In this document: in pieces, positions 2,362 to 19,027 of the stretch
How positions within the stretch are numbered: the first letter of the stretch is position 1
How the letters are laid out: each line of letters starts with the position of its first letter
Source: Brenneria bubanii
GTDB lineage: Bacteria > Pseudomonadota > Gammaproteobacteria > Enterobacterales > Enterobacteriaceae
Reading direction: 5' to 3'
Length of the DNA stretch: 64,000 bases
NCBI RefSeq assembly: GCF_022378355.1
Contig: NZ_JAKMAJ010000016.1
Span: 1-64,000, forward strand
Made by a program: the position numbers and the translations under genes
Notes under the pieces: model-generated
Database searches by the model: none
What the model saw: only the letters and a program-made list of their open reading frames with translations
What the model was told of the DNA's origin: nothing

Positions 2362-3123
2362 TTAATGCAGGATTTGGGACAGGAAGGTCTGTGTCCGTTC
2401 CGAACGAGGGCTGGTGAAGAAAATATCCGGCGCCGCCTGTTCGACGATTTCCCCCTGGTCCATAAAAATGACGCGGTCGGCAACGGTTTTCGCAAATCCC
2501 ATTTCATGGGTTACACACAGCATCGTCATACCGTCTTCCGCCAGCCCCAGCATGGTATCCAGCACTTCTTTCACCATCTCAGGGTCGAGAGCCGACGTCG
2601 GTTCATCAAACAGCATGATTTTGGGTTTCATGCACAGTGAGCGAGCGATGGCTACACGCTGCTGCTGTCCACCGGAAAGCTGCCCGGGAAACTTGTGCGC
2701 GTGGGCGGAAATACGGACCCGTTCCAGATAGTGCATCGCCAGCTCTTCCGCTTCCTTTTTCGGCATATGGCGTACCCAGCAAGGCGCGAGGGTACAGTTC
2801 TGCAATACGGTTAAATGGGGAAACAGATTAAAGTGTTGAAATACCATACCGACTTCAGTCCTGATTTTTTCGATATTGCGTAAGTCGTTGTTCAGCTCAA
2901 TGCCATCAACCACGATAAGCCCTTGTTGATGCTCTTCCAGATGATTGATACAGCGTATGGTGGTGGATTTCCCCGAGCCGGAAGGGCCGCACAGTACGAT
3001 TCTCTCGCCCTGTTTTACCTGTAAGTTAATGTTTTTCAGCACGTGGAATTGTCCATACCACTTATTCACATTCTCTAATGTGATCATGTGAGCGGCAGAT
3101 TGCGTTATAGAATTCTGATTCAT
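2362..3123 (-). CDS. aapP: General L-amino acid ABC transporter, ATP-binding subunit AapP (YhdZ)
   Basis: Cytoplasmic ATPase of the AapJQMP importer. It carries a Walker [10 protein letters not shown], the ABC signature [10 protein letters not shown], Walker [13 protein letters not shown] and the switch histidine in VTHEMGFA. I place the start at the ATG preceded by GAGG at good spacing, giving 253 residues (E. coli YhdZ 252). A TTG four codons upstream would extend it but has no ribosome-binding site of its own. The gap to aapM is 8 bp, so the two are translated from one message. It could also energise the nearby ATPase-less transporter at 6833-8293, which is inference. Confidence 0.93.
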
Positions 3124-3131
3124 GGCTGGCC

Positions 3132-4226
3132 TCAATGCGACTTATGTCCGGTGTTAAAACGATTTTCCAGATGTTGGCTATAACGCGACATACTGAAACA
3201 GAAGATCCAATAGATCACGGCGGCGAAAACATAGCCTTCGGTTGACATGCCAAGCCACGCAGGATCGACGGTTGCCTGTTGAATACTGCTAAAGAGATCG
3301 AAGAGTCCGATGATGATCACCAGGCTGGTGTCTTTAAACAGCGCGATAATGGTGTTGACCAATCCCGGAATCACCATTTTCAGCGCCTGCGGCAGGATAA
3401 CCAGTCCCTGCATCCGCCAGTAGCCCAACCCCAGCGACTCGGCCGCCTCATACTGGCCTTTGGGAAGCGCCTGTAATCCGCCGCGCACCACCTCCGCCAC
3501 ATAGGCTGACTGGAACAGAATCACGCCGACCAGCGCGCGCAACAGCTTATCGATGCTGGTGCCTTCCGTTAGAAATAAAGGGAGCATAACGGATGACATA
3601 AAAAGTACGGTAATCAGCGGCACGCCACGCCAGAACTCAATGAAAATAACCGAGAGTATGCGGATCACCGGCAGCGACGAGCGACGTCCCAGCGCCAGCA
3701 AAATCCCCAGCGGCAACGCGCCGGCGATCCCCACGCAGGCGATAATCAACGTCAGCGTCAGTCCGCCCCATTGGCTGGTTTCTACCAGACTCAGTCCGCC
3801 GAACCCGCCGTAGAGCAGCCACCAGACGACCAGCGGATAGGTCACTGACCAGCAGGCGATATAGCGTCCCCGGCGTGGAAGCGCGTGCCAAAACATCGGC
3901 AGCATGCTGAGCAGACCGATGATCAAAGCAAAGTTGATACGCCAGATCTCCTTTGCGGGATAGAGCCCGTACATGAAATGGCTGAATCTGGCATGGATAA
4001 ATACCCAGCATGCGCCCTCTCTGGTACAGTCGTTACGGGTTGTGCCAATCCAGTTGGCTTGAAACACCGCCCAGTTCAGCAGCGGGGGAATGGTAATCCA
4101 AAGCAGCCACAGGCATAGCAGCGTCAACAGGCTGTTGGTTATGTTGGAGAAAAGATTCCGTCGCGCCCAATCGATCGCTCTGAAAAGCGAGGCTTGACGG
4201 TTCTGTGTATGCGGAATCATCGTCAT
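3132..4226 (-). CDS. aapM: General L-amino acid ABC transporter permease AapM (YhdY)
   Basis: Inner-membrane permease of the HisMQ family, third gene of aapJQMP. The 364-residue protein (E. coli YhdY 367) has hydrophobic segments near 36-55, 120-160 and throughout the C-terminal half. The last third contains the EAA loop ([20 protein letters not shown]), which contacts the ATPase. As usual for AapQ/AapM-type proteins, a long extracytoplasmic region separates the first membrane segment from the conserved core. The start follows AGAGGA. A second ATG two codons downstream is possible. Confidence 0.92.
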
Positions 4227-4235
4227 TTAATCCTC

Positions 4236-5414
4236 TTAGCGCTCTATTAAGGCAATCTTGCGGTTGTAAATGTTCATCAGCAGAGAAATCAGCAGGCTGA
4301 TGATGAGATATACCGACATGGTCATCGCGATGGTTTCTATTGCCTGACCGGTTTGGTTCAGCACCGAGCCGGCAAAGAGCGAAACCATATCCGGATAGCC
4401 GATAGCGGCGGCCAGCGATGAATTTTTTACCACGTTAAGATACTGACTGGTCAGCGGTGGGATAATGACGCGTAACGCCTGGGGCAGAATCACTTTACGC
4501 AGCGTTATCGGATTCGGCAGGCCAAGGGAGTAGGCCGCCTCATGCTGGCCGTAAGAAACGGATTGAATTCCTGAACGGATAATTTCAGCAATAAACGATG
4601 AGGTATACACCGACAGCGCCAGCGTCAGCGCCGCTAATTCAGGGATTAAAACCATACCGCCCCGAAAGTTAAATCCCTTTAATTCCGGTACGTTCCAGTG
4701 CATGGCCGGGCCAAAGATCAGGTGGCTCAAGGTCAGCAATGCCGCCAGAACGCCTAATGCCGCCGGCCAGGTTTTTCTGAATTGACCGGTGAGTGCGTGG
4801 TAGCCCTTATTACGGCGAGCAACAATCAGCGAGATAACCAGCGTGATAACGATGGAAAGGAAGAACGCGATAGCGCCGGGGCCGGCTTCGGGTGCGGGAA
4901 TATAAAGCCCCCGGTTGCTGAGGTACGAAATATCGAAAGCGGTAATGGCTTGCCGCGGGCCAGGCAGGTTGCGAAGCACGGCAAAATACCAGAAAAAGAT
5001 CTGCAACAGCGGCGGAATATTGCGAAAGATCTCAATGTAAATGGTCGAAACTTTTCGCAACAGCCAGTTGTCGGACAGACGAGCCAGCCCGATGACCAGA
5101 CCCAGCATTGAGGCGAGGACAATGCATAGGGCCGAGACCAATAACGTATTGCATAAGCCGACAAGGAAAACACGGCCATAGGTGTCGCCCTGCTGGTAGT
5201 CGATCAGGCGCTGGATAATCCCAAAGCCGGAGCTATTGTTCAGAAATGCGAACCCGTATGTAATTCCTCTCTGAGCAAGGTTGGTAACGGTATTGTGTAA
5301 TAGGTAAGCGGCGGTAGACAATACGGCAATGACCACGATTATTTGATACAGCCAGGCGCGCACCGCTGGATTAGTTAGTGAGATATCACTTTTCACGGTT
5401 GGGCGTTGTTGCAT
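4236..5414 (-). CDS. aapQ: General L-amino acid ABC transporter permease AapQ (YhdX)
   Basis: Partner permease of AapM. The 392 residues (E. coli YhdX 393) show a first membrane segment near 23-41, a conserved HisMQ-type core with the segment STIYIEIFRNIPPLLQ, a long insertion, and a C-terminal EAA loop (EAAYSLGLPNPITLRKVILP). It ends 9 bp before aapM. Gene order J-Q-M-P is the standard order for this transporter. Confidence 0.92.
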   Translation of the reverse strand: MQQRPTVKSDISLTNPAVRAWLYQIIVVIAVLSTAAYLLHNTVTNLAQRGITYGFAFLNNSSGFGIIQRLIDYQQGDTYGRVFLVGLCNTLLVSALCIVLASMLGLVIGLARLSDNWLLRKVSTIYIEIFRNIPPLLQIFFWYFAVLRNLPGPRQAITAFDISYLSNRGLYIPAPEAGPGAIAFFLSIVITLVISLIVARRNKGYHALTGQFRKTWPAALGVLAALLTLSHLIFGPAMHWNVPELKGFNFRGGMVLIPELAALTLALSVYTSSFIAEIIRSGIQSVSYGQHEAAYSLGLPNPITLRKVILPQALRVIIPPLTSQYLNVVKNSSLAAAIGYPDMVSLFAGSVLNQTGQAIETIAMTMSVYLIISLLISLLMNIYNRKIALIER

Positions 5415-5481
5415 ATTGCAGCCTCAATAGCGGGGATACAGAGGGCGCGGCAATCCAGCCGCGCCCGTGTTTCTGTGACGA

Positions 5482-6507
5482 TTAGCGTACGGACGGCGCG
5501 TATTGGATCCCGCCTTTATTCCATAATTCGTTGAGGCCGCGTTTGATTTTTAACTCGCTGCTCATCCCGACATTGCGTTCGAAAATTTCGCCGTAGTTAC
5601 CGACTTGTTTGATGATTTTATGCGCCCAGTCGTTAGATAATTTTAAATCTTTACCGTAGTTGCCTTCATGACCGAGCAGATGGGACATATCCGGGTTGGT
5701 TGGTTTGGCGGCGAGTTGGTCGACGTTTTGCGAAGTGATGCCCATTTCTTCCGCGTTCAACATCGCAAACAGCGTCCAGCGAACAATGGTGAACCACTCT
5801 TCATCGCCACGACGAACAATCGGTCCCAGCGGTTCCTTGGAGATCACTTCCGGCAATACGATAAATTCGCTTGGGTTGCTCAGCTTGATGCGCAGCGCGT
5901 AAAGCTGGGATTGGTCTGACGCCAGGGTATCGCAACGGCCAGATTCCAGCGCTTTGGCGCTTTCGTCAGAGCGGTCAAACGTCACCGGAGTGAACTGCAT
6001 TTTGTTGGTTTTAAAGTAGTCGGCTACGTTCAGCTCGGTATCGGTGCCGGACTGAATACAAACCGTCGCGCCATCAAGTTCTTTGGCGCTGGTCAATCCT
6101 GCCTTGTTGTGGGTCAGGAAACCGATGCCATCGTAATAGGTCACGCCGGTGAACAACAGGCCCATGGCGCTATCGCGCGAGGATGTCCATGTGGTGTTGC
6201 GCGACAACAGATCAACTTCACCGGATTGCAGTGCGGTAAGGCGCTCTTTCGCCGTCAGCGGCGTATATTTTACTTTATTGGCGTCGCCGAATACGGCTGC
6301 CGCCACGCCACGGCATACATCAACATCAATGCCGGTGAATTTACCGCTGGCGTCCGCATAGGAAAAGCCCGGCAATCCATCACTGATACCACACTGCACG
6401 AACCCTTTTTTCTGAATGGCATCCAGAGTCGCGCCTGCATGAGCCTGACCGATCGCGGCAAACAGCGAAGCGCCGGCAACCAAAGTAGAGATAATCATTC
6501 GTTTCAT
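5482..6507 (-). CDS. aapJ: Periplasmic general L-amino acid-binding protein AapJ (YhdW)
   Basis: Substrate-binding protein that captures amino acids in the periplasm and delivers them to AapQM. A signal peptide covers about residues 1-24 (MKRMII...AHA), followed by a family 3 extracellular solute-binding fold (CGISDGLPGFSYADASGKFTGIDVDVC region). I use the ATG preceded by AAGGA, which gives 341 residues, the length of E. coli YhdW; an in-frame TTG six codons upstream lacks a ribosome-binding site. The leader carries a sigma-54 promoter motif about 100 bp upstream, which fits a nitrogen-scavenging role. Confidence 0.94.
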   Translation of the reverse strand: MKRMIISTLVAGASLFAAIGQAHAGATLDAIQKKGFVQCGISDGLPGFSYADASGKFTGIDVDVCRGVAAAVFGDANKVKYTPLTAKERLTALQSGEVDLLSRNTTWTSSRDSAMGLLFTGVTYYDGIGFLTHNKAGLTSAKELDGATVCIQSGTDTELNVADYFKTNKMQFTPVTFDRSDESAKALESGRCDTLASDQSQLYALRIKLSNPSEFIVLPEVISKEPLGPIVRRGDEEWFTIVRWTLFAMLNAEEMGITSQNVDQLAAKPTNPDMSHLLGHEGNYGKDLKLSNDWAHKIIKQVGNYGEIFERNVGMSSELKIKRGLNELWNKGGIQYAPSVR

Positions 6508-6606
6508 ATTCGTCCTTGTAACCAAATTGTTATATCTTGTTGTATTTTAAGTGCTAAATAAGATGCACCCTATCCGTTCATCGGCTCGCCGCCGCGGCAA
6601 GAGCTA

Positions 6607-6832: not shown

Positions 6833-7498
6833 TCACTGCTCGACATGACGCCGGTAATATTTTTCAAGTCTCGCCTGCAACTGGCTCAGCACGGTGCTGA
6901 ACATCAGGTAAATCAACGCCGCTTCAATGTAAAGAATCAGCGGCTCGTAGGTGACGGACACAATGCGCTGTGCGGCTAAAAACATCTCCGGAACCGTGAT
7001 CACCGCGGCAAGCGATGTATCTTTAATGAGAGAAATAAAGGTGTTGGATAGCGGTGGTAATGAAACAAATACCGACTGCGGAAAGATGACCCAGCGAATT
7101 GCCTGCGCGCCATTCATACCCAAAGAGTAAGCGGCGTTCCACTGTTCCTTCGGAACGGACTGTATGGCGCCACGGACGATTTCCGAACTGTATGCACCAA
7201 CACTGATCGTGAAGCCGATTAAAGCGGCGGGAAAGGCATCCAGCGTAATGCCCGCGCTGGGAAGTCCGTAAAAAATGAGAAATAGCTGAACCAGTAATGG
7301 TGTTCCACGGATAACCCAGACATAAAAATCGCCGATCCATTGCAGCGGTTTGGGGCCGTAGAGGCGGAGCAGGGCGACGATAACGCCGACGGCCAGGCCG
7401 AAAAGAAAGGAAAGAATAGCCAGCGGAACGGTAAATTTCAGTCCCGCGGACAGCAGATTCCAGAAGGCGTCTGCCATAAGCTGTAACCAGGGCGGCAT
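6833..7498 (-). CDS. Polar amino acid ABC transporter permease (cystine/YecS-like)
   Basis: Inner-membrane permease of the HisM/GlnP family, 221 residues, with about five membrane segments. The segment WVIRGTPLLVQLFLIFYGLP is near 62-81 and the EAA-type loop (NAAYSLGMNGAQAIRWVIFP) lies in the C-terminal half. It is encoded 24 bp after the binding protein, so the two form one unit. No gene for an ATP-binding subunit follows; the next gene downstream is aapJ, beyond a promoter region. Similarity in size and sequence is to TcyL/YecS-type cystine permeases, but the substrate is not established. Confidence 0.87.
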   Translation of the reverse strand: MPPWLQLMADAFWNLLSAGLKFTVPLAILSFLFGLAVGVIVALLRLYGPKPLQWIGDFYVWVIRGTPLLVQLFLIFYGLPSAGITLDAFPAALIGFTISVGAYSSEIVRGAIQSVPKEQWNAAYSLGMNGAQAIRWVIFPQSVFVSLPPLSNTFISLIKDTSLAAVITVPEMFLAAQRIVSVTYEPLILYIEAALIYLMFSTVLSQLQARLEKYYRRHVEQ

Positions 7499-7522
7499 GA
7501 AAACGACTCCGAAAAGGCGCGA

Positions 7523-8293
7523 TTATTGAGATACATCCTCACCAAAGTATCGTATGGCTATCGTTTTATAAGTGCCATCGGCTTTAATCTCATCCAGCGC
7601 CTTGTTCAGCGCGTCGGCGAGTCGGGTTTGCCCCTTTCGGATTAAGATGGCTGAGGGTTCTCCTGTGGCGGAGATGGCGGTAACCTTGACGTTAGCATCC
7701 GGCTTGCGCTTCTTGAAATCCAGGAAAGACAGGTTGTCGTTGAGCGTGGCATCGGCGCGGCCACTGAGCACCAGCGCCAAAGACTGATTAAAGCCATCAG
7801 TGGGAATAATCTCCGCGCCGTGGCGTGTCGCCAACTGCGCATAGTTGCTGGTCAGGCTTTGCGCCGATTTTTTGCCCTTTAAGTCGGCGAAGTCTTTGAT
7901 TGCGGTGTTATCGGCGCGGGTGATAAGCACGGCTTTTGAATAGATATAAGGTTGGGAAAAGTCATATTTAGCCTGACGCGCTTGCGTTACGCCAACCTGA
8001 TTGATGACGGCGTCATAGCGTTTGGCGTCCACACCGGCGATGAGTCCGTCCCAGCGCCCCTCGATAAACTGGAATTTTACGCCGAGCCTGTCGGCGACCG
8101 CGCGGCCAATATCCACATCAAAACCAACCAGTTGACCCGATTTATCGTGATAGGTGTAGGGGGCATAGGTGCCCTCCGTACCCCATTTGATCACGCCGGC
8201 GGATTTTATTGCGTCAAGGTCATCCTGCGCTTGCGCCAGGACGCTGGTGGCAAGCAGTGCGCCACTCAGTAAAGCAAAACGGATTCTTTTCAT
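7523..8293 (-). CDS. Periplasmic polar amino acid-binding protein of an ABC transporter
   Basis: 256 residues with a signal peptide of about 22 residues (MKRIRFALLSG...AQAQ) and a family 3 solute-binding fold: GTEGTYAPYTYHD near 38-50, GFDVDIGRAVADRLGV near 58-73 and EGRWDGLIAGVDAKRYD near 78-94, which is typical of FliY/TcyA-like cystine and polar amino-acid binders. It precedes the permease. A 180-bp gap separates it from the ridA-like gene upstream, so it may have its own promoter or be the distal part of the LacI-controlled unit. The exact ligand cannot be read from sequence. Confidence 0.87.
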   Translation of the reverse strand: MKRIRFALLSGALLATSVLAQAQDDLDAIKSAGVIKWGTEGTYAPYTYHDKSGQLVGFDVDIGRAVADRLGVKFQFIEGRWDGLIAGVDAKRYDAVINQVGVTQARQAKYDFSQPYIYSKAVLITRADNTAIKDFADLKGKKSAQSLTSNYAQLATRHGAEIIPTDGFNQSLALVLSGRADATLNDNLSFLDFKKRKPDANVKVTAISATGEPSAILIRKGQTRLADALNKALDEIKADGTYKTIAIRYFGEDVSQ

Positions 8294-8473
8294 TATCAGT
8301 TCCTGTGGGAATAGGTTCTATTACCTTCATTCACCATAAATTTACGCGAGGCGGTTTATTTTTATAAATGACATTGCGCGCTGGGTTATATCAGAACTGA
8401 ATATAGTCGTGGGCGGGTGATGGAGGCGGCGCCGTTATCCATTGCCGCCGTGATTGTGGCTGGGACTGGGCGA

Positions 8474-8863
8474 TCAACGCTTGTCGGATCGATAGGCAAC
8501 ACAGTCAATTTCAACTTTGCAATCGACCATCATGCTGGATTGCACACAGGCGCGGGCGGGGGGATTGTCGCCAAAATATTCGGCATAAACGCCGTTAAAA
8601 CTCCAGAAGTCGCGCGGATCGTCCAGCCATACGCCGACCCGCACCACGTCTTCAGTGCCGTAGCCTGCTTCCTGGAGGATGGCGATGAGGTTTTCAATGG
8701 CCTTACGGCTTTCACTCACGATGCCGCCGGAGAGAATTTCGCCGCCCTCTATCGCGACCTGGCCGGAAACATACAGCCAGCCGTCGGCCTGCGCCGCTCG
8801 GGCGAAAGGCAGCCCTTTACCGCCCGCGCCTTGTTCCCCACTGCCATAACGTTTGATTGTCAT
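8474..8863 (-). CDS. RidA/YjgF-family enamine/imine deaminase
   Basis: Small cytosolic enzyme family that hydrolyses reactive enamines such as 2-aminoacrylate, the products of PLP-dependent dehydratases, to ketoacids and ammonia. The 129-residue protein starts at the ATG behind GGAAGGAAAAGAG; an open frame upstream reads into the neighbouring gene and is not used. The key arginine is R104 in PPARACVQ, and E119 lies in KVEID near the C-terminus. The cysteine at 106 replaces the more usual Ser/Thr. It follows a D-serine dehydratase-like gene by 46 bp, which makes enamine clearance a sensible job here. Confidence 0.88.
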   Translation of the reverse strand: MTIKRYGSGEQGAGGKGLPFARAAQADGWLYVSGQVAIEGGEILSGGIVSESRKAIENLIAILQEAGYGTEDVVRVGVWLDDPRDFWSFNGVYAEYFGDNPPARACVQSSMMVDCKVEIDCVAYRSDKR

Positions 8864-8909
8864 TTCTCTTTTCCTTCCGTTTCGTTGTTTGCTAAAAACG
8901 TTCGCTGCG

Positions 8910-9995
8910 TCAGACGATGCATCCGCGGGCGACAACCGTCTGAACGCCGACCAACTGGCCGTGGCGAATAATATGAATCTCATCGACCATGTTGGTGACG
9001 ACGCAGGCATGATTCGGAACGATGCGGACCTTGTCGCCGACCGACAGCCCGATCGGCCCATCGCTGATCAAACGCCCATGCTCTTCCGAGAGTTGATCGA
9101 TAACGATATCCGGGCGGCCGAGAATCTGCCCATAGCCCGACATCCCAAGCAAATCGGCGGTTAATGTCTTGCTGCCGGCGTCAATCACGGCGCGGTGGTC
9201 GTTTGGCACCGAAACCACGGTGGCCAGTACGGTCAGCGCGCAGTCTTCCCATTCGCATACTCCGCGCTCAACCAGCGATCGATCGTTGTAGACATAGGTT
9301 CCGGGACGGTATTCGGTGACCACCGGCGCATTCGCCGCCTGCATCATGGAGGGCGTTCCGCCGGAGCTGATAATCAGCTCGCGTTCGCCGATTTTTTGAT
9401 AAACAAGCTGCTTTGCCTCACGCATAAATCGTTCGACGACCTGTTCTTCACCGGCCGGCGGATAGGTCATCAGTCCGGCGAACACCAGTCCTGACGCGTC
9501 GTTGATCTGCTCGGCGAGGCGCGCGGCGTCCTGTGGGGAAGGTACGCCGCAGCGCTGCGCGCCGGTATCGCATTCCACCAGGACGGCAAGCGGCGAGGCT
9601 TCCGAGGCGAAGACGGCGGATAGGCCGTTAATCACCTCGATGCTATCGGCCACCACCGCAAGGCGAACCTTGCGCGCCAGCGCCGCCAGCCGGCGCACCT
9701 TGTTTGCGCCAAGGATGTTATAAGTGATTAGTACATCGGTGATGCGCGGACTGCCGGCAATCATGGCTTCCGCTTCGGAAACCTTCTGGCAGGTAATGCC
9801 GACGGCGCCGGCGTCCAACTGCATTTCGGCTATCTGCGGCAGCTTGTGGGTTTTGATATGCGGCCTGACCTTGAGGCCATGGCCTGCGGCGTAGCGCTGG
9901 AAGCGGGTAATGTTCGCGCTGGCGATATCAAGGTTAACCAGTACGGCGGGGGTATCTACCTCATTTATCGAGGCGGGAGCGGTGGTGTCGTTCAC
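8910..9995 (-). CDS. Fold-type III PLP enzyme: D-serine dehydratase/D-threonine aldolase family
   Basis: 361-residue PLP enzyme with an alanine-racemase-like N-terminal barrel and a C-terminal metal-binding domain. The PLP lysine is K48 in RPHIKTHK. The C-terminal metal pair reads N-H329-A-C331, a His-X-Cys site as described for eukaryotic D-serine dehydratase and D-threo-3-hydroxyaspartate dehydratase, whereas D-threonine aldolases are described with His-X-Asp. That favours a dehydratase that releases an enamine, matching the RidA-like gene downstream. The start is a GTG with GGAG about ten bases upstream. No other good start is seen. Substrate specificity is inferred. Confidence 0.85.
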   Translation of the reverse strand: MNDTTAPASINEVDTPAVLVNLDIASANITRFQRYAAGHGLKVRPHIKTHKLPQIAEMQLDAGAVGITCQKVSEAEAMIAGSPRITDVLITYNILGANKVRRLAALARKVRLAVVADSIEVINGLSAVFASEASPLAVLVECDTGAQRCGVPSPQDAARLAEQINDASGLVFAGLMTYPPAGEEQVVERFMREAKQLVYQKIGERELIISSGGTPSMMQAANAPVVTEYRPGTYVYNDRSLVERGVCEWEDCALTVLATVVSVPNDHRAVIDAGSKTLTADLLGMSGYGQILGRPDIVIDQLSEEHGRLISDGPIGLSVGDKVRIVPNHACVVTNMVDEIHIIRHGQLVGVQTVVARGCIV

Positions 9996-10063
9996 GCGTA
10001 GTTTTCTCCATCATAGTAGGCTGACGCCGCCATGCTATTCGCGATGCGCCAAAGGTTGTGGTT

Positions 10064-11905
10064 TCAGTTCGCGCCAATGGCGACGAAATGCCCGGGAGAA
10101 CATTCACGATAAATACGTTTGGGCGGAATGTAGTCGGTCGGGCGAAGCGGACTCTTTATCTCACTCGTCAGCTCGGGCGGCAGCGGATGACGACGAGACG
10201 GATCCGGCAAAGGCACGGCGGCGATCAGCCGTTTGGTATATTCATGTTGCGGATTGCTAAATACGGCGGCTCTGGGACCGATCTCGACGATTTCGCCCAG
10301 ATACATGACGGCCACGCGGTGGCTGAGCCGTTCGACTACCGCCATATCATGCGAAATGAACAGGAAGGCGATTTTCATACTTTCCTGCAAACTGAGCAGC
10401 AGATTCGCCACCTGCGCTTTGACGGAGACGTCCAGCGCGGAAACGGCTTCATCGGCGATGATGGCTTTCGGCTCCAGGGCGAGCGCGCGGGCGATGGAGA
10501 TCCGCTGGCGCTGGCCGCCGGAAAATTCATGCGGGTAGCGATCGGCCATTTCCGCGCTCAGCCCCACCTTTTCCAGTAAGTCGTCGGCCCGTTCGCGCGC
10601 GGCTTTGCGTCCCATCATGCCGTGGGCCAGAATCGGTTCGGCGATGGCGGAACCGATGGTGAGGCGCGGGTTCAGGGACGCAAAGGGATCCTGAAAGATC
10701 ATCTGCACCGTGCGGCGGCTTTCCCGTAGCTCGCGGCTGGCGGACGTCAACACGTTGCGTCCGTCAACGAAGACGGCGCCGGTCGTGGGTTCATTAAGCC
10801 GCATGATGGCGCGTCCGGTGGTGGATTTGCCGCAGCCGGATTCGCCGACGATGGACAGGGTTTCGCCAGGAAAAAGATCGAAAGAGACGTTTTCTACGGC
10901 ATGCACCCGGCCGGCAAGCCGGCCCAGCCCGGCGGAGATATCAAAGCGCACGGAAAGGTCGCTGACGCTAATGATCGGGTTGTTGCTGAAGACGGTTTCC
11001 GCTATCTGCGTCGGTTCGGTTAGCGCGCCGGTATGCGGATTAATTTCCGGAAAACGTACCGGGCGCGCGGCATCCCCCATTGAACCTAAATGGGGAATGG
11101 AGGAGAGCAGGGTGCGGGTATAGCGATGCCGGGGACGGGCGAAAATATCGGCGGTCTTTCCGGTTTCGATTCTGTCGCCGCGAAACATCACCACCGTTCG
11201 GTCCGCCACTTCGGCGACAACGCCCATATCGTGGGTGATAAACAGCACGCCCATATTCTCTTCCGCCTGCAGTTCACGAATGAGGTGCAGAATCTGCGCC
11301 TGAATAGTGACGTCCAGCGCGGTGGTGGGCTCATCCGCGATCAATAACTGCGGCCGGCATGCCAGCGCCATGGCAATCATCACCCGCTGGCGCATTCCGC
11401 CCGATAGCTTATGCGGATAGTCGTTCACCCGGGCGCGGGCGGAGGGAATGCGCACCCGTTCCAGCAGACGTACGGCTTCCTGCCGAGCCTGATGCGCCGA
11501 CATATCCCGATGCAGCATCAGGGCTTCCGCCAACTGAGCGCCGATGGTGAACACCGGATTCAGGCTGGTCATCGGCTCCTGAAAGATCATGCCGATATGA
11601 TTACCGCGGACCTTGCGCATTTCCGCTTCCGGCAGCGTGAGCAGGTCGCGCCCTTGAAACAGAATTTTCCCTTCACAACGCGCTTTACCCGCGGGCAGCA
11701 GCCGCATGGTCGACAGGGCGGTGACGCTTTTCCCCGAACCGGATTCACCGACAATGGCGACGGTTTCGCCCTGCGCTACGCTAAGCGAGATATCGCGGAT
11801 AACCGGATTCCAACCATTTTCCGTGCGAAATGATGTGGTCAGGCCTTCAATACTGAGCACCGGCGTAGCCGGCATGGCGATGGCGTCGCCAGCGGGTTTA
11901 TTCAT
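10064..11905 (-). CDS. Dipeptide/oligopeptide ABC transporter, fused two-domain ATPase (DppD-DppF type)
   Basis: A single 613-residue polypeptide contains two complete ABC cassettes. Domain 1 (about 18-270) has Walker A GESGSGKS, signature LSGGMRQRV and Walker [13 protein letters not shown]. Domain 2 (about 310-560) has [27 protein letters not shown] and [14 protein letters not shown]. GsiA-type importers share this fusion. In domain 2 the Walker B D-E-P is D-E-A, a common variant in this family. I prefer the ATG after AAGGAGG with 8-base spacing; a GTG immediately before it is possible. It follows the DppC gene with only three bases between stop and start. Confidence 0.92.
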
Positions 11906-11908
11906 CAC

Positions 11909-12763
11909 TCAGACCTCCTTGGACAAGCGGGGATCGACGAGATCGCGCAGACCGTCACCCAGTAACTGCAAAGACAACACGGCAAAGACGATAGCCAGCC
12001 CCGGAAAGTACATCAGCCAGGGGGCGTCATTCATATATTCCCGTCCCATCGCCAGCATGGTGCCCCAGGTGGGAACGTCGGTGCTGACGCCAATGCCGAG
12101 GAAAGACAAACTGGCTTCGGCCAGCATGGCCGAGGCGAAGATAAAGCTCGACTGCACCAGGATCGGCGACGCCAGATTGATCAGGATATGGCGCAGCAGT
12201 ATCCGATGGGTGGGCAGGCCCAGCGACTTGGCCGCCTCCACGTAAGGGAGTTCGCGCAGCACCAACGTCGATCCTCGCACCACGCGCGCCAGCCTGGGAG
12301 CGTAAGTGATGCCGAGGGCGAGAATGACATTGATCAGCGAAGGGCCGAGCGCCGCCACCAGAGCGATAGCCAGCAGAATGTCGGGGAATGACATCATGGC
12401 GTCCAGCATGCGGGAGATCGGCGCATCCAACCGGCGGAAATAACCGGCCAGTACGCCGAGAAAAATCCCCAGTACGGTCGCCAGTATTACGACGCCGGCG
12501 CTGACCATCAGGGAGATTCGCCCGGCATGGATAGCGCGGGAGAACACATCGCGGCCAAATTCATCGGTGCCGAACAGATGTGCCAGCGATGGCGACTGCA
12601 ACCGATTGATGATAGACAATTTGTTTGGCGCATAGGGCGCTATCCAGGGGGCAAACAGCGCGGCGAAAACCACTACGCTCAGGATGATCACGCCCAGCAG
12701 GATGGCTTTGTTGCGGCACATGCGCCGTAACTTTACGCGCAAGGAAAGGGTTGCGGTGGTCAT
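11909..12763 (-). CDS. Dipeptide-type ABC transporter permease (DppC family)
   Basis: 284-residue inner-membrane permease with a cytoplasmic N-terminus, one membrane segment near 18-40, the OppC/DppC motif HLFGTDEFGRDVFSRAIHAG (residues 66-85), and a C-terminal block of membrane segments with the EAA loop near EAAKSLGLPTHRILLRHI. Its start overlaps the stop of the preceding permease as ATGA, a sign of translational coupling. Confidence 0.92.
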   Translation of the reverse strand: MTTATLSLRVKLRRMCRNKAILLGVIILSVVVFAALFAPWIAPYAPNKLSIINRLQSPSLAHLFGTDEFGRDVFSRAIHAGRISLMVSAGVVILATVLGIFLGVLAGYFRRLDAPISRMLDAMMSFPDILLAIALVAALGPSLINVILALGITYAPRLARVVRGSTLVLRELPYVEAAKSLGLPTHRILLRHILINLASPILVQSSFIFASAMLAEASLSFLGIGVSTDVPTWGTMLAMGREYMNDAPWLMYFPGLAIVFAVLSLQLLGDGLRDLVDPRLSKEV

Positions 12764-13710
12764 AGCCGGACCCTCGGATCGACAAGAATATAGAGCATAT
12801 CCACAATGAAATTGATAAGCACATAGATAGCGGCCACGGCGAGCAGCGCGCCCTGAATAACCGGGTAGTCGCGGCGTTGTACGGCGGAAACCACCAGATT
12901 GCCGATGCCGGGCAGGCCAAATACGGTTTCCGTCACCACCGCGCCGGAAACCAGTAACGCGATGGACAGGCCGATCACCGTGATGATCGGGATCAGCGCA
13001 TTCTTCAGCGCGTGTTTGAGGATAACGGTCTTCTCCGCCGCGCCTTTGGCCCGGGCGGTACGAATATAGTCATCCGACAGCACGTCCAGCATCGCCGCGC
13101 GGGTAAAGCGGGTAATCAGCGCCGAGTTGACGATCCCCAGCGCGATGGCCGGTAGCACAAGATGGTGCAGACGGGTGAAGAAAGACGAATCCGGTCCGCC
13201 GTAACCGGACACCGGAAACCAGCCCAGTTTTACCGCCATCGTTTGGATCAGGATCAGGCCCAACCAAAAACTGGGGATGCTGGCGGCCACCATCGTGACG
13301 CCCACCACCATCTGGTCAAACGCCGAGCCGCGTTTGTAAGCGGACAAAATGCCGACCGGCAGCGCAATCATCGAGGCGATCAGGATGGAAAACAGCGTCA
13401 GAAAAAATGTCGGTTCCGCGCGCGCCGCCAGCGCCGAGGTCACGGGCATATTAAGAAAGATCGATTGCCCAAGGTCGCCCTGCACGGCTCTGGCGATGAA
13501 AGAACCGTATTGTTGCAGCAGCGGAGCATTGAGCCCCAGTCTTTCGCGCAGGTCCGCAATGTCCTGCGGCGTGGCGTCCGAGCCCAGCATCATTGCGGCA
13601 GGCTCGCCCGGCGTGACGCGGACGATCAGGAAAACGACGGTCGCCAGTATCAGCAGGACGGCGATGATACCGGCAAGACGAGTGATAAAGGCATACAAGA
13701 TCCGCGACAT
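12760..13710 (-). CDS. Dipeptide-type ABC transporter permease (DppB family)
   Basis: 316-residue inner-membrane permease, partner of the DppC-like protein. It has an N-terminal membrane segment (about 10-30), the characteristic VRVTPGEPA segment near 31-39, and a C-terminal domain with the EAA-type loop containing YIRTARAKGAAEKTVILKHA. A GGAAGGG ribosome-binding sequence precedes the ATG. It is 12 bp downstream of the binding-protein gene. Confidence 0.92.
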   Translation of the reverse strand: MSRILYAFITRLAGIIAVLLILATVVFLIVRVTPGEPAAMMLGSDATPQDIADLRERLGLNAPLLQQYGSFIARAVQGDLGQSIFLNMPVTSALAARAEPTFFLTLFSILIASMIALPVGILSAYKRGSAFDQMVVGVTMVAASIPSFWLGLILIQTMAVKLGWFPVSGYGGPDSSFFTRLHHLVLPAIALGIVNSALITRFTRAAMLDVLSDDYIRTARAKGAAEKTVILKHALKNALIPIITVIGLSIALLVSGAVVTETVFGLPGIGNLVVSAVQRRDYPVIQGALLAVAAIYVLINFIVDMLYILVDPRVRL

Positions 13711-13722
13711 GGCAACCCTTCC

Positions 13723-15246
13723 TTACGATCTGGCCGAAACATTCCAGAATGTCGGCCAGTAGTGCGGTTCATATCCCTGAATCCCTTTGGCCAGTCCGGA
13801 AAGCACATTGAAGTTGCCGACTTTGAAAATTGGCGCGTCGTCATACAGCGTGGCCTGCAGCTTTTCCCATGCCGCAAATTTTTTTTCCGGCGTGACGGCT
13901 TGTAGATAGGTCTCCACCGCCTGGGTTTTGGCCGCGGAGACATACCAGCCGGGATAGGTATCCGAGATGCTGTTCATCATCGTCGGATCGCCGGGGAAGT
14001 TGGAATGAGTGATGAAAATATCCCATTGCGTCGGATCGGCGCGGCGCGTTGTCAGCGTCGCCCAGTCGGTCACCTGTAAATCGACCTTGAAACCGGCGGC
14101 CTCAAGATAGGCTTTGGCCACTTCCGCCATCTTGTAATGGAATTCATACTGGCGCGATGTCAGCAGACGGATGGGCGTGCCTTTATAACCGGCTTTTTTC
14201 AGCAACGCGCCGGCCGCCGCGGGATCGCCTTCGCCGTAGCGGGCAACGCCGGCTTCGGTGTGCCAGAAATAGCCTTCCGGGAAATAGGCGCCGTCGACAT
14301 GGTAGAACTTCGCATCCGAGAACGCGGCCATCATCATATCGCTGGGATTGAGCGCGGCCTGTACCGCATTGCGCAGATCTTTATTGGTAAACAGACCTTC
14401 TTTCATGTTCATGTTGAACGAGGCCCAGCCCCCCGACTGCAATACCACCGGTTGCGCTTTATCGCTGGCGGCGACGCGATCATAAGCGCTGAACGGCAGC
14501 GAATCGGCATAGTCATACTGGCCGGCCAGCAGACCTTCTACGCGGGTATTGGCATCCGGAACCGGTACGAAGCGGAGTTCATCGGCCAAGGCCTGACGTT
14601 CGCCGGCGAAGTTGCTGGGCGCGCCTTCAGGAGACTGATAAGCCGGAAAGCGGACGAGCTGGATGTACTGGTCCGGTTTCCTTTCCTTCAGCATATAGGG
14701 GCCGGTTCCCACGAATTCGGTCAGCGTATCCTGGATTTTTTCTGACGGCATGATGATGGCGGCCTGCGACAGCGTCGCCAGCAGCGGGGAATAACGGGAT
14801 TTCAGCTTGACGATCACCGTATCAATGCCGTCTGCGCTCACGCTGTCGATGTAATCGGCGACCTGTTTCCCTTTGGAGTTGATTTTCTCCCAGCGTTGTA
14901 ACGACGCCACCACATCCGCCGACGTCATGGCGCTGCCGTCATGAAAGGTCACCCCTTTGCGTAGCGGGATGGCGTAGGTGAGGCCGTCTGGCGACAGGGT
15001 CGGCATGTCGGCGGCCAGCAGCGGCTGCGGCTGCCATTTGTCGTCAAAGGTGTAGAGCGTTTCGTAGATATGCTGGCTGATCATGCCGACCAGATCGGTC
15101 GGCGTCTGCATCTGATCCAGCGTTGGCGGTTCGCCAACCGTGGCGATGGTCAATATTCCGCCCTGTTTGTCTTGTGATGCGGCCGGTCCGGCTACCCCGA
15201 GGAAAAAGAGGGTAGCGGCGACAGCAAAGAGTGATTTCAGTTTCAT
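13723..15246 (-). CDS. Periplasmic peptide-binding protein (SBP family 5)
   Basis: 507-residue solute-binding protein of the DppA/OppA/GsiB type. The signal peptide covers about residues 1-26 (MKLKSLFAV...AASQ). The mature part begins with the family signature QGGILTIATVGEPPTLDQ and contains the LRKGVTFHDGSAMTSADVVAS block. The ATG follows GGGGG at five bases; an open frame 29 codons longer would give no recognisable signal peptide and is rejected. It is the first transporter gene, 68 bp after the amidohydrolase. Bound ligand may be a short peptide or an N-acyl amino acid; sequence does not decide. Confidence 0.91.
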   Translation of the reverse strand: MKLKSLFAVAATLFFLGVAGPAASQDKQGGILTIATVGEPPTLDQMQTPTDLVGMISQHIYETLYTFDDKWQPQPLLAADMPTLSPDGLTYAIPLRKGVTFHDGSAMTSADVVASLQRWEKINSKGKQVADYIDSVSADGIDTVIVKLKSRYSPLLATLSQAAIIMPSEKIQDTLTEFVGTGPYMLKERKPDQYIQLVRFPAYQSPEGAPSNFAGERQALADELRFVPVPDANTRVEGLLAGQYDYADSLPFSAYDRVAASDKAQPVVLQSGGWASFNMNMKEGLFTNKDLRNAVQAALNPSDMMMAAFSDAKFYHVDGAYFPEGYFWHTEAGVARYGEGDPAAAGALLKKAGYKGTPIRLLTSRQYEFHYKMAEVAKAYLEAAGFKVDLQVTDWATLTTRRADPTQWDIFITHSNFPGDPTMMNSISDTYPGWYVSAAKTQAVETYLQAVTPEKKFAAWEKLQATLYDDAPIFKVGNFNVLSGLAKGIQGYEPHYWPTFWNVSARS

Positions 15247-15314
15247 TTTTGCCCCCATTAGTGCTTGTGGATCCGGCGCCGTGTTGCCCGGATCGTCCCG
15301 TATTGCGCGCGGTG

Positions 15315-16526
15315 CTAATGTTGATGACAACAACTACAGGAGTAATGGCGCAGTTCCTCGAAAGGTCTGCGTGAAATTTCCATATCTTTGCCGCCCAGAT
15401 AGACCGCCACCGGATGGAGCAGGCGGTCGCCCTGACGGATATCGCCGCCGACATCGACAAAATTAAACGGTTTTTCCACCTCTTCCAGTACGGTGATATC
15501 GGCAATGGCGCCGATGCCCAGGTGCCCCAGATCGGATCGCCGCATCGCCAACGCGGGCCGGTTGGTCGCCATGGCGATAATCGATGCCAGTGATATGCCG
15601 CAATTGAGCAATTTGCTCATGGTGTGCAGCAGATCGAAAGCCGGCCCTTCTACTGAAGCGACATGCACGTCCGAGGAGATAATGTCCGGCATAAAGCCGT
15701 TTTCCAGCGCGGCTTCCGTGCTTTTAAACGACAGGGCGCCCATGCCGTGGCCGATATCGAACAGTACGCCACGCTGACGCGCGGCAATGATTTCCGGCAG
15801 GATCCGGCCGTCGGCGCCGATAGCGGAATTAGGATCGGGGCGATAGCAATGGGTCAGGATATCGCCGGGCCGTAAGCGGGAAACCACGTCGGCATAGCTG
15901 GGCGGCGGTCCGCCGATATGCGCCATTAACGGCAGATTGACCGCGCTCGCCGCTTCCAGCGCAAGGTCGAGCGCGCCCAGTCCCAGCTCGCCCGTGGCGG
16001 GGCCGCCAATGCGGACTTTTACGCCGACAATGCTGTTCCGGTTTTCTTCTATTTTGGCGATGCATCGGTCGACCGGCAGCATCTCCGCCAACGTGGCTTC
16101 ACCGATGAAAAGGCCTTTATCAAAGCCGAAAATGCCCGGAAAAGAGACGTTGAGAAACGCCAGGATGCGGTAGGGCGAATGGCGCATGACAAAATCACGC
16201 AGTCCGTCGAAATTCCCGGCGCCGGCGCTGCCGGCATCGACCAGGGTGGTGACGGCGGAGCGTCGGGCCAGCATATTGGGATCGACGCCCAGCGATGTCG
16301 CCTTGTGGTAGACATGAGTATGAAAGTCAATCAGCCCCGGCGACACAATACAGCCGGAGACATCCCGGATGTAGCGGGCGCCGGGCGTCAGATCCCCTCC
16401 TATGGCGGCAATCCGTCCGGCTTTGATGGCAATATCACATACGGCGTCAAGGCCGTTGCGTTCATCGATCAGCCGTCCGCCTTTAAGCACCAGGTCGTAG
16501 GTTGTATCAGATGGATGAGGTTGCAT
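15315..16526 (-). CDS. Metal-dependent amidohydrolase (deacetylase/D-aminoacylase-like)
   Basis: 403-residue amidohydrolase-superfamily enzyme. The N-terminal beta-sandwich part (about 10-62) is followed by the metal barrel: H69 and H71 in DFHTHVYH, K170 in VGVKVRIGG as candidate carboxylated lysine, H203 in AHIGG, H226 in THCYR and D286 in SSDVH. It resembles the EF_0837/AHA_3915 group of putative deacetylases. The family hydrolyses amide bonds, for example in N-acyl-amino acids or cyclic imides. The C-terminus ends in a Cys/His-rich tail, HYSCSCCHQH, which is unusual. First gene of the minus-strand unit, so the repressor acts at its promoter. AGGA precedes the ATG. Substrate unknown. Confidence 0.87.
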   Translation of the reverse strand: MQPHPSDTTYDLVLKGGRLIDERNGLDAVCDIAIKAGRIAAIGGDLTPGARYIRDVSGCIVSPGLIDFHTHVYHKATSLGVDPNMLARRSAVTTLVDAGSAGAGNFDGLRDFVMRHSPYRILAFLNVSFPGIFGFDKGLFIGEATLAEMLPVDRCIAKIEENRNSIVGVKVRIGGPATGELGLGALDLALEAASAVNLPLMAHIGGPPPSYADVVSRLRPGDILTHCYRPDPNSAIGADGRILPEIIAARQRGVLFDIGHGMGALSFKSTEAALENGFMPDIISSDVHVASVEGPAFDLLHTMSKLLNCGISLASIIAMATNRPALAMRRSDLGHLGIGAIADITVLEEVEKPFNFVDVGGDIRQGDRLLHPVAVYLGGKDMEISRRPFEELRHYSCSCCHQH

Positions 16527-16639
16527 GAGTCTCGTCCTATGTTATTCGGATTTTGTCAGGTGGGGCCGGTTTGCCTTCACGGGTTATCAATTCGTCTCCA
16601 CAATCAGGAGACTATTCTTGATAATTTTCCTGGTCAACA

Positions 16640-16655
16640 CAAATTGCGCAATTTG
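16640..16655. promoter_or_regulatory. Operator O1: perfect 16-bp palindrome before the catabolic operon
   Basis: CAAATTGCGCAATTTG is a perfect palindrome centred on CpG, the form of a LacI-family operator. It shares TTGCGCAA with a second site 278 bp away before the lacI-type gene, and CGCAATTTGCG also occurs at both sites (16647-16657 and 16916-16926). A possible promoter on the minus strand starts three bases away: TTGACC (16632-16637), 17-bp spacer, TAGTCT (16609-16614). The gene-free stretch 16527-16974 is otherwise A/T-rich promoter DNA. Confidence 0.7.
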
Positions 16656-16909
16656 CGTATAGCGTTTTTTTATGACAACCGGGGGGAATTTCTGTAAATT
16701 CCTTCGCTATCAATGCAACTAAATTAAGATAAACTTGACGGTTGATGACAACTACCGCTGCCGGCGCCAGAGTGACGAGCCTTACTCGGCCAAGGCTTCA
16801 TAAGCGTTGGCCTTATCTTCGCTCTCTCTTGATATGGCGCGTTGTCAGCAGGATGAATTTTGTTTTATCAACCATAGTTTTCCTCACTTGTGAGAGTGTA
16901 AATCTTGTT

Positions 16910-16949
16910 CGGCAACGCAATTTGCGCAAATATGAAAATTGCGTTGCCG
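16910..16949. promoter_or_regulatory. Operator O2: nested palindromes before the lacI-type gene
   Basis: A perfect 14-bp inverted repeat, CGGCAACGCAATTT (16910-16923) with its complement at 16936-16949, surrounds a perfect 12-bp palindrome ATTTGCGCAAAT (16920-16931). The inner core TTGCGCAA is the same as in O1. It ends 25 bases before the regulator start codon, so it overlaps the promoter or early leader and fits autorepression. As RNA it could also fold into a 14-bp hairpin. Confidence 0.7.
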
Positions 16950-16974
16950 CCGTTTCGGCTATTCAGGAGAAGTC

Positions 16975-17997
16975 ATGGAGCCTTCAAAACGGATCAATCA
17001 GGCGGATATTGCCCGACTGGCCGAGGTGTCCGTCAGTACGGTTTCCCGGGCGCTTTCCGGGCAAGTGGGCATGTCGGCGGAGTTGCGCGAACGGATCCGC
17101 CGGATTGCCGATGATTTGGGATATATAGAAAACCAGCGTGCGGGCGCCGCGGCCAATGTGGTCGTTTATCTGCCCATGCACCCGGTAACCGGTGGGTTAC
17201 ATGAGGTTTTTCAGCAGGTACTGGAAGGGGCAAAACTGGAAGCCGAGCAGGAAGGCTATGTGCTGTTTCCAAAGCTGATGCCGGAAGGCGCCGTCGATCT
17301 GGCGTGTATTGAACGTAATGCTCAGGCGCATGATACCGATGCCGCCATCATGTTCTATACCGCGCCTGAATCTGAGGTCGCCGAGCATTTCACCCGACAT
17401 GGATCGTTAGTGCTGGTGAACACGGTGGACATGAGCATGCAGTTCGATAGCGTCATTGCCAATAACTACGCGGGGGCTCGTCTGGTCACGCAGCGGATTA
17501 TCGCCAACGGTCATCGCCGGCTGCTGTTCGTCACCGGCGATCTGCGTTTTCCCTGGCGTGAAAGAATGCGCGGCTTTATGGATGCGGTGGAAGAGGCGGA
17601 AGGCGTTACCGGCGATGTGCTGGAAATCGGCTACGATCGTTTCGAAACGGCGCTGGCCTATTTCGGCAAGGTATTTGCGCAAAAAGAGGCGTTTCCTTAC
17701 AGCGCGGTTTTCTGCGTCAACGATCTGACCGCCGTCGGCGTGATGCAGGCGGCCAGCGAGGAAGGACTTGTCGTGCCCGCAGACCTGTCGGTGGTGGGTT
17801 ATGAAGATATGACCTTTGCGGAAATGACGACGCCCCGTTTGACCACGGTGCATGTCGATCGCTATACGATCGGACGTGAAAGCATCCGCTTGCTGAAGCG
17901 CCGCATGTCCGAGCATCACGCTATTCCGTTACAGATTCAGTGCGGCGTGCGCTTTATCGAGGGCGCGACGCTCGGCAGGACAACGCCGGCGCGGTAA
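16975..17997 (+). CDS. LacI-family transcriptional repressor
   Basis: 340-residue regulator with a LacI helix-turn-helix at about residues 6-28 (NQADIARLAEVSVSTVSRAL), the hinge near 50-60, and a periplasmic-binding-protein-like effector domain carrying VNTVD, NDLTAVGVM and VVGYEDMTFAEMTTPRLTTV segments. The ATG follows AGGAG. It is transcribed away from the amidohydrolase/transporter unit, with two palindromes between, so it most likely represses that unit and itself. The effector is unknown and cannot be read from the fold alone. Confidence 0.92.
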   Translation: MEPSKRINQADIARLAEVSVSTVSRALSGQVGMSAELRERIRRIADDLGYIENQRAGAAANVVVYLPMHPVTGGLHEVFQQVLEGAKLEAEQEGYVLFPKLMPEGAVDLACIERNAQAHDTDAAIMFYTAPESEVAEHFTRHGSLVLVNTVDMSMQFDSVIANNYAGARLVTQRIIANGHRRLLFVTGDLRFPWRERMRGFMDAVEEAEGVTGDVLEIGYDRFETALAYFGKVFAQKEAFPYSAVFCVNDLTAVGVMQAASEEGLVVPADLSVVGYEDMTFAEMTTPRLTTVHVDRYTIGRESIRLLKRRMSEHHAIPLQIQCGVRFIEGATLGRTTPAR

Positions 17998-18061: not shown

Positions 18062-19027
18062 TCAGGCGACGCCTGCCGCGTGCAGATCGTGCAGATTTAT
18101 CGCACCGACCAGACGTCCTTCGCTGTCGACCACCGGGGCGGCTGAAATATGCTGTTCATGCAGGGCTTCCAGCGCGGCCACGGCCCGCCAGTCCGCGGGC
18201 AACTGATAGCCGGGGCGGGTCATCGCCTGGGTGATAACGGTATCCAACGCGTTGCCTTTGACCAGCCAGCGACGCAGGTCGCCGTCGGTAAATACGCCGG
18301 CGACCCGGTTTTCCTCGTTGCAAACCACAATCAATCCCAGCCCGGTGCGGCTCAGTTCCAGCATGGCGTCCATGACGCTTGCCGTTTGATCGACGCGAGG
18401 CAACTGCTCGCCGCTGCGCATAATATGGTGGACGCGGTTGAGCAACCTGGCGCCCAGACTGCCGCCGGGGTGTGAGCGCGCGAACTGTTCTGCGCTGAAT
18501 CCCCGATGGCGCATCAGGGCCATCGCCAGCGCGTCGCCCATCATCAGCGTATTCACCGCGCTGGAGGTGGGGGCCAGTCCCATCGGGCACGCCTCGCGCG
18601 TGACGCTGACGTCCAGTACGCAGCTGGCGGCCAGACCGAGGGGCGACTCAGCGCCGCCGGTCAGGGCAATAACCGGGATATGGCTTTCGGCCAGCAACGG
18701 AAGCAGGACATTGAGCTCCTGCGCCCGGCCGGAGTAAGAGATAAATATCACCACATCCTGCGGTCCAATCATACCCAGATCGCCATGCAGCGCTTCCGCC
18801 GGGTGAACAAAAAACGCCGGTGTGCCGGTGCTGGCCAACGAGGCGGCGATCTTCTTGCCGATGTGGCCGGATTTTCCCATGCCGGACACCACCACTTTTC
18901 CTGTGCATGCCAGCAGCAGTTTGCAGGCGTCGACAAAGCGCGTATCCAGCCGGGCCAGCATGCGCTGTGCTTCAGTGATTTCTATTGCCAGCGTTTCACG
19001 GGCAAAGGTCAATAAACGCTCATTCAT
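18062..19027 (-). CDS. gutQ: Arabinose-5-phosphate isomerase GutQ (SrlQ)
   Basis: Interconverts ribulose-5-phosphate and arabinose-5-phosphate; last gene of the sorbitol operon. 321 residues: an N-terminal SIS sugar-isomerase domain (about 30-170, with [17 protein letters not shown] and the [11 protein letters not shown] segment) and two C-terminal CBS domains (about 205-320). It overlaps the srlR stop region by 8 bases. A second family member, kdsD, is at 62476-63462; the position inside srl identifies this copy as GutQ. Confidence 0.94.

Follow-up and report, generated by a model that had tools for sequence, protein, structure and literature searches.

Within a 64,000-nucleotide stretch of Brenneria bubanii DNA (contig NZ_JAKMAJ010000016.1; hereafter the window), we examined a locus encoding a LacI-family regulator, an amidohydrolase, a dipeptide-type (Opp-type) ATP-binding cassette (ABC) importer, a fold-type III pyridoxal 5'-phosphate (PLP) enzyme and a RidA-family protein. 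The cassette proper extends from LacI through RidA (~8.4–18.0 kb), and we consider it probable that it is a LacI-repressed, horizontally acquired catabolic cassette for an N-acyl amino-sugar acid. The importer would take up a 2-amino-3-hydroxy D-acid in N-acylated form; the likeliest candidates are N-acyl amino-sugar acids, e.g., N-acetylglucosaminate (GlcNAc1A) or one of its epimers. The amidohydrolase, of the cog3964 family, would strip the acyl group, the PLP enzyme, with its His-x-Cys metal motif, would dehydrate and deaminate the freed amino-aldonate, and RidA would hydrolyse the resulting enamine or imine to a 2-keto-3-deoxy acid and ammonia. Finally, a chromosomal 2-keto-3-deoxygluconate (KDG) kinase would pass the 2-keto-3-deoxy acid into the lower branch of the Entner-Doudoroff pathway; KdgK is present in the same genome (513 bits, cut-off 400).

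A sequence-only reading of this DNA had arrived at the same logic of import, deacylation, dehydration and enamine clearance. That logic is supported and the gene content first noted is confirmed (LacI divergent from the amidohydrolase, a dipeptide-type importer whose ATPases are fused, the PLP enzyme and RidA), and the dehydration and enamine-clearing steps agree with the metal motif and the pathway-type RidA described below. An imported N-acylated hydroxy-D-amino acid is likewise supported as the general substrate type. However, D-Ser, D-Thr and 3-hydroxyaspartate, the compounds proposed at the time, give way to another class, as genome context points to amino-sugar acids. Glucosaminate (GlcN1A) is itself a 2-amino-3-hydroxy D-acid, and with moderate confidence we revise the substrate class to N-acyl amino-sugar acids (2-amino-2-deoxy-aldonates, e.g., glucosaminate).

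The PLP enzyme, RidA and the ong pathway

The PLP enzyme carries the motif PNHAC, and its K48, H329 and C331 correspond to the PLP lysine and the His-x-Cys (HxC) metal pair of dehydratases. PNHAC also occurs in D-threo-3-hydroxyaspartate dehydratase (3wqc), while the D-threonine and hydroxyaspartate aldolases 7dib, 4v15 and 6qkb have His-x-Asp (HxD); the pertinent part of PMC4401734 gives His and Asp as the metal ligands of the aldolase, and His and Cys as those of the dehydratase. Because its metal pair is His-x-Cys and not the His-x-Asp of aldolases, we assign the enzyme to the dehydratase type. It has the fold, the lysine and the metal pair in common with 3wqc and with D-serine dehydratase (3anu), although identity to these in structural alignment is 24–29%. 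In the PLP tree, the enzyme falls in a 38-row, all-HxC clade (100/98). Were it instead a D-threonine-type aldolase, its products from an N-acyl beta-hydroxy-D-amino acid would be glycine and an aldehyde. D-threonine and hydroxyaspartate aldolases are indeed its best phmmer and structural matches, yet the metal site is not that of an aldolase, all HxD relatives in the tree (16/16) lie outside its clade, and RidA would have no obvious job, which makes this reading very improbable. D-threonine aldolase was rejected as an identity on PNHAC in place of His-x-Asp. The 3-hydroxy-D-aspartate aldolase BhcC was rejected for want of His-x-Asp and for its score (NCBIfam NF045642, 205.8 bits, cut-off 690). 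PLP homologues at 36–40% identity from the same family (L003–L007) were set aside as part of another operon, RidA and the amidohydrolase being absent from the viewed 20 kb in four of the five.

The earlier remark that no described pathway was known is not supported, since a pathway with this logic, the ong pathway, has already been described in Pseudoalteromonas prydzensis. According to the portion of PMC9537276 that concerns it, that pathway comprises a deacetylase, a fold-type III PLP deaminase, a RidA and a repressor; OngB deacetylates GlcNAc1A, OngC turns GlcN1A into KDG and ammonia and deaminates D-Ser and D-Thr as well, and OngD (RidA) is required in vivo, its role being left open in that portion. 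A passage in PMC12017989 assigns OngB a subtype V metal site, and GlcNAc1A is mentioned, among the matches listed, in passages of PMC9537276, PMC12017989, PMC11653859 and PMC10535946. The cassette and the ong pathway have in common the deacylation, the dehydrating deamination by a fold-type III PLP enzyme, a pathway RidA, a repressor and a KDG kinase downstream, as well as, for the enterobacterial ong clusters, the RidA subfamily. In contrast, the deacylase is a cog3964 binuclear-type amidohydrolase in the cassette and the D-aminoacylase-like, subtype V OngB (Cys/His/His) in ong; the PLP enzyme is HxC and D-threonine aldolase (D-TA)-like versus the D-serine dehydratase (DSD)-type OngC (28–30% identity by BLAST, 32–35% over part of the length in the genome search, and apart in the tree); and an Opp-type ABC importer with LacI stands in place of a solute:sodium symporter (SSS) with RpiR. 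Furthermore, the cassette has no TonB receptor, and the genome has no match to GH20 or to a lytic polysaccharide monooxygenase (LPMO). With its logic already known from ong and its deacylase, PLP enzyme, importer and regulator differing, the cassette is a variant and not a new kind of pathway. No report of a cog3964 version was seen among the papers listed by the literature searches, which is not proof of absence.

The RidA provides a link between the two systems. Ong-type clusters (D-aminoacylase, RidA, SSS-like open reading frame, RpiR and DSD-type PLP enzyme) occur in four genomes of the same family, and their RidAs form one clade with that of the cassette (99/99, 15 rows), a comparison made with enterobacterial ong RidAs, OngD of P. 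prydzensis itself not being among them. E. coli RidA, TdcF and RutC, at 26–28% identity to the cassette RidA, fall outside this clade. A search with the cassette RidA through 198 genomes sampled from the window's family, which we equate with Enterobacteriaceae in the broad sense, gave 44 matches in 42 genomes. Thirty RidA loci among the matches listed, every one of them inspected, comprise the cassette itself, 18 with OngB and OngIT or OngR, six with an ATPase-RidA-IclR-OngC-type PLP arrangement and five with a divergent IclR. Where these three groups were viewed widely (4/18, 5/6 and 3/5), each locus has an OngC-type PLP enzyme, and the last eight also have an importer with a family-3 substrate-binding protein (SBP3). 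The PLP enzyme of Vibrio sp. THAF191d was discarded as a source of OngC, with no ong genes seen around it.

The strongest argument that the cassette PLP enzyme performs the reaction of OngC is an exchange of PLP types within one conserved module. On pSymB of Sinorhizobium meliloti, a binding protein of the SBP3 type, two permeases, an ATPase, RidA and IclR are found with a D-TA-type PLP enzyme. The PLP enzyme and RidA of this module are 66% and 81% identical to those of the cassette, whereas its importer is of the polar-amino-acid type, its regulator is IclR in place of LacI, and it has no deacylase. The enteric importer-RidA-IclR module at the six loci above has the same gene order, its importer parts and IclR being 52–70% identical to those of S. 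meliloti and its RidAs 72–75% identical to that of the cassette. Since the S. meliloti module carries the cassette-type PLP enzyme and the enteric module the OngC type, the two types replace each other. The module lies at 773–778 kb on pSymB in S. meliloti 1021 and adjoins a sulfate ABC transporter in RCAM1115; together with the designation of Smb21132/33 as sulfate transport genes in a passage of PMC2912261, these positions suggest that it is probably Smb21134-21140, with Smb21135-38 as the importer, a numbering that we infer. D-galactosamine is put forward as a possible substrate of Smb21135-38 in an excerpt of PMC4961836. In chitin-using archaea, the section of PMC12343721 on this subject predicts that glucosamine is turned into glucosaminate, on which a kinase and then a glucosaminate-6-phosphate ammonia-lyase act; genes for IclR and a RutC-family protein lie close by. 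SMb20427/20428 gave no literature match with Sinorhizobium meliloti.

The amidohydrolase and the substrate

The amidohydrolase scores 396.5 bits against NCBIfam PRK09237 (cut-off 371), which we take to be cog3964, and has a complete binuclear-type metal set (H69, H71, K170, H203, H226 and D286), all six ligands being invariant in a 13-row alignment. Its closest solved chain is 2ogj, presumably Atu3266 of Agrobacterium, and solved members of the family are named dihydroorotase or adenine deaminase. We know of no physiological role for any cog3964/PRK09237 member; the closest one is reportedly active in vitro on acetyl-(R)-mandelate (a result attributed to Ornelas et al. 2013). While the cassette protein resembles this family in exceeding the curated cut-off and in keeping every metal ligand, it differs by its tie to a PLP dehydratase and a RidA, and we propose that it is an N-acyl amino-acid or amino-aldonate deacylase.

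Genome context ties the amidohydrolase to PLP enzymes of this fold. A D-TA-family PLP enzyme is found in 24 of 80 amidohydrolase loci (22 by clustering; 15 HxC and 11 HxD, two having both), against 0.54 loci expected from its density in eight of these genomes, and as the loci are related, no probability is attached to this contrast. In the amidohydrolase tree, the cassette protein belongs to a 19-row clade with ten HxC loci, nine without a PLP enzyme seen and none with HxD. The excess of loci with both enzymes speaks against the view that two unrelated functions adjoin here, the amidohydrolase, Opp-type importer and LacI handling, e.g., a hydroxy acid acyl ester, and PLP-RidA serving another substrate. 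It is true that Rhizobium sp. BK602 has LacI, amidohydrolase and importer without the PLP enzyme and that S. meliloti has PLP-RidA with another importer and no amidohydrolase. However, Aureimonas joins the same importer (68–82% identity; family-5 binding protein 68–72%) to the PLP enzyme (63%) and RidA (80%), all together, and the genes form a single run both here and in two congeners; such a split is therefore quite improbable.

The HxC loci near the cassette amidohydrolase hold IclR, aldose epimerase, SMP-30 gluconolactonase, a short-chain dehydrogenase/reductase (SDR), the amidohydrolase, the PLP enzyme, an HpcH/HpaI aldolase, an ABC importer and Gfo/Idh, although some lack one or another member and the SDR and importer were named by eye. 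Judged by gene content, such loci would encode every step of an oxidative pathway for an N-acyl hexosamine. Viewed from the PLP enzyme, some HxC-clade loci similarly hold varying subsets of aldose epimerase, SMP-30 gluconolactonase, SDR, Gfo/Idh, HpcH/HpaI aldolase and cog3964 amidohydrolase. In Azospirillum, the layout is similar and a D-aminoacylase stands where the amidohydrolase would be. Five PLP relatives (L113, L126, L127, L131 and L132) come with MurR/RpiR, RidA, M81, SDR and a sugar ABC importer (L132 has no ABC in the stretch), with GH20 also in L113 and L132 and Gfo/Idh also in L113, L126 and L131; in further relatives of the clade, the neighbours are TRAP, M81 and a sugar kinase whose best NCBIfam match is KDG/KDGal kinase, at 172 bits and thus short of the cut-off of 400. 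The M81/MlrC-family metallopeptidase, seen in the PLP-RidA clusters L113, L126, L127, L128, L131 and L132, is a possible third alternative deacylase.

This context bears on the alternative that the compounds scavenged are N-acyl or peptide-linked forms of D-serine, D-threonine or D-threo-3-hydroxyaspartate, with the PLP enzyme as the matching dehydratase. The HxC motif is that of D-threo-3-hydroxyaspartate dehydratase, the importer is of dipeptide type, Azospirillum has a D-aminoacylase in the amidohydrolase's place, and OngC acts on D-Ser and D-Thr, as reported in part of PMC9537276. Yet the sugar dehydrogenases, gluconolactonase, epimerase, GH20, KDG-kinase-like kinase and HpcH/HpaI aldolase that accompany members of the clade are needless for D-Ser or D-Thr catabolism. 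Sugars, moreover, are the usual ligands of LacI-type regulators, and on balance we find this substrate class rather unlikely.

Several points nevertheless weigh against an N-acyl amino-sugar acid as substrate. GH20 (PF00728) and LPMO (PF03067, LPMO_10) have 0 matches in the host's assembly; a chitin LPMO/GH20 source inside the host is thus rejected, and the host would have to rely on monomeric amino-sugar acids that other organisms produce. The RidAs of L127, L129, L019, L041, L061, L084 and L114 fall outside the ong RidA clade and that of L128 just outside, while the RidA of L029 is inside it, yet ~12 kb from an aldolase-type PLP enzyme. Because OngC is broad, D-Ser or D-Thr derivatives could still be the substrate.

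Beyond the cassette, a more tentative suggestion is that a widespread oxidative, non-phosphorylating amino-sugar route exists in Alphaproteobacteria, with interchangeable deacylases and two PLP types arranged largely around one dedicated RidA subfamily. Its parts would be a hexosamine dehydrogenase, a lactonase, an N-acyl-aldonate deacylase, an amino-aldonate dehydratase and a 2-keto-3-deoxy-acid aldolase, the deacylase being drawn from at least two, perhaps three, unrelated families (cog3964 amidohydrolase, D-aminoacylase and possibly M81/MlrC). If true, this would give a job to cog3964 amidohydrolases and to the Smb21135-38 importer. The reading of the cassette itself, if right, would widen oxidative amino-sugar catabolism, known from marine chitin degraders, so as to include rhizobia as well as plant-associated enterics. 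It would also suggest a physiological substrate for an orphan amidohydrolase family and a testable role for the OngD-type RidA, whose function is left open in the portion of PMC9537276 cited above.

Two side observations concern other cog3964 loci. A second cluster type (L027, L029, L031, L033, L038, L051, L055, L058 and L065), to our knowledge uncharacterised although no literature search was aimed at it, combines a sugar ABC importer, amidohydrolase, aldehyde dehydrogenase, GMC oxidoreductase, HxD fold-type III PLP enzyme and fold-type II PLP enzyme, some members missing per locus; it looks like a putative route in which an N-acyl amino-alcohol is oxidised to an N-acyl beta-hydroxy-D-amino acid and then cleaved by an aldolase. 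In BK602 (L009, 5559–8483), CocE-like and esterase-like hydrolases (named by eye) flank the LacI-amidohydrolase cluster, with a second family-5 importer upstream.

Conservation, origin and regulation

Ten genomes of the genus, including the host, were searched with DNA of the gutQ region that adjoins the cassette, and the region was read in four others (G575, G576, G578 and G114). The entire run, from LacI to the permease (Perm3) of the neighbouring amino-acid importer pair, is kept in G575 and G576, while the cassette is absent from G114, where a genome-wide search for the PLP enzyme gave nothing at 1e-12. Compared with G576, the ten genes have dN/dS of 0.05–0.13 (RidA over 102 codons only), and purifying selection on the locus is evident. 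As the order recurs in both congeners with such dN/dS values, the gene set is not a matter of chance; the check for conserved co-occurrence proposed earlier thus returned the whole set in two congeners and sub-sets in Alphaproteobacteria. In G576 (L220, ~10.6–11.0 kb), the RidA frame is interrupted close to its end; for the remaining cassette genes, the match covers 98–100% of their length. In G575 (L219, against window 6833–17997), dS is 0 for the near-identical LacI and amidohydrolase and 0.43–0.71 for the genes from ATPase to permease, which marks the locus as a recombination mosaic.

The best matches of the cassette parts are alphaproteobacterial (Rhizobiaceae, 68–87% identity). Identity to the Rhizobium sp. 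BK602 cluster is 68% for LacI, 76% for the amidohydrolase, 79% for the family-5 binding protein, 86–87% for the permeases and 78% for the ATPase; the PLP enzyme is 71% identical to that of Sinorhizobium sp. BG8, and RidA 84% to that of Rhizobium sp. TCK. Among the 198 same-family genomes, seven have a PLP match at 1e-40, with identity above 40% in the host genome only, and five of 369 sampled genomes of the class match at 1e-50, the host included. E. coli genomes gave no near match to 13.7–18.0 kb. G+C is 58.3% in the cassette, 53% on its low-coordinate side and 56.8% on the other. From these comparisons, we infer horizontal acquisition from a Rhizobiaceae-like donor.

The regulator exceeds the cut-offs for PF00356 and PF13377 (helix-turn-helix 48 bits, Peripla_BP_3 95 bits). 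The gap that separates LacI from the amidohydrolase contains two palindromes, at 16644 and 16922, with TTGCGCAA as their common core; the core has four copies across the window, i.e., two beyond this gap, and three in the homologous intergenic region of BK602. Given the paired sites and the three BK602 copies, LacI likely controls the LacI/amidohydrolase divergon, and the predicted operators support the control first suspected.

Locus layout and neighbouring genes

All ten genes noted earlier are open frames at their positions, identified by Pfam/NCBIfam.

Table 1. Features of the locus, in window coordinates.
Feature	Coordinates	Strand	Basis or remark
LacI-family regulator	16975..17997	+	Pfam/NCBIfam; ATG start at 16975 favoured over TTG at 16939
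Operator-like palindrome ATTTGCGCAAAT, close to LacI start	16920..16931	.	Shared core TTGCGCAA
Operator-like palindrome AATTGCGCAATT	16642..16653	.	Core TTGCGCAA also in BK602 LacI-amidohydrolase intergenic region
cog3964/PRK09237-type amidohydrolase	15315..16526	-	NCBIfam PRK09237, metal set, alignment, tree
Substrate-binding protein family 5, start inferred	13723..15246	-	PF00496, 236 bits
Opp-type permease B	12760..13710	-	Pfam/NCBIfam
Opp-type permease C	11909..12763	-	Pfam/NCBIfam
Fused double ATPase, 614 aa, two ABC_tran domains	10064..11908	-	Best NCBIfam match GsiA, below cut-off
Fold-type III PLP enzyme, Ala_racemase_N + D-ser_dehydrat	8910..9995	-	Lys48, metal motif PNHAC (H329, C331)
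RidA-family protein, ong/OngD-like subfamily	8474..8863	-	Family profile and tree
Family-3 amino-acid substrate-binding protein (SBP3)	7523..8293	-	Resident neighbour, membership doubtful
Amino-acid ABC permease, HisM/cystine-type (Perm3), no adjoining ATPase	6833..7498	-	Resident neighbour, membership doubtful

The SBP3-Perm3 pair (6833–8293), which has no ATPase of its own, had been counted as part of the system. Window positions 8408 and 19016 are separated by only ~50 bases in G578, so this congener has neither LacI through RidA nor gutQ at this place, yet its SBP3 and Perm3 are 83% and 94% identical to those of the window. Because G578 keeps the pair without the cassette, we regard the pair as a resident neighbour and not clearly a part of the system. 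Next to the pair is a complete four-gene amino-acid ABC importer (window 2362–6525; ATPase, two permeases and binding protein, named by eye), which could supply the pair with an ATPase.

On the other side, gutQ (18062–19027, named by eye) adjoins the cassette; it is gone at this place in G578, and in G114 only a short remnant matches it (L221, L222). Elsewhere in the window, 45207–45623 on the minus strand matches Rfam Rev11, a soft rot Enterobacteriaceae antisense RNA, at 200 bits.

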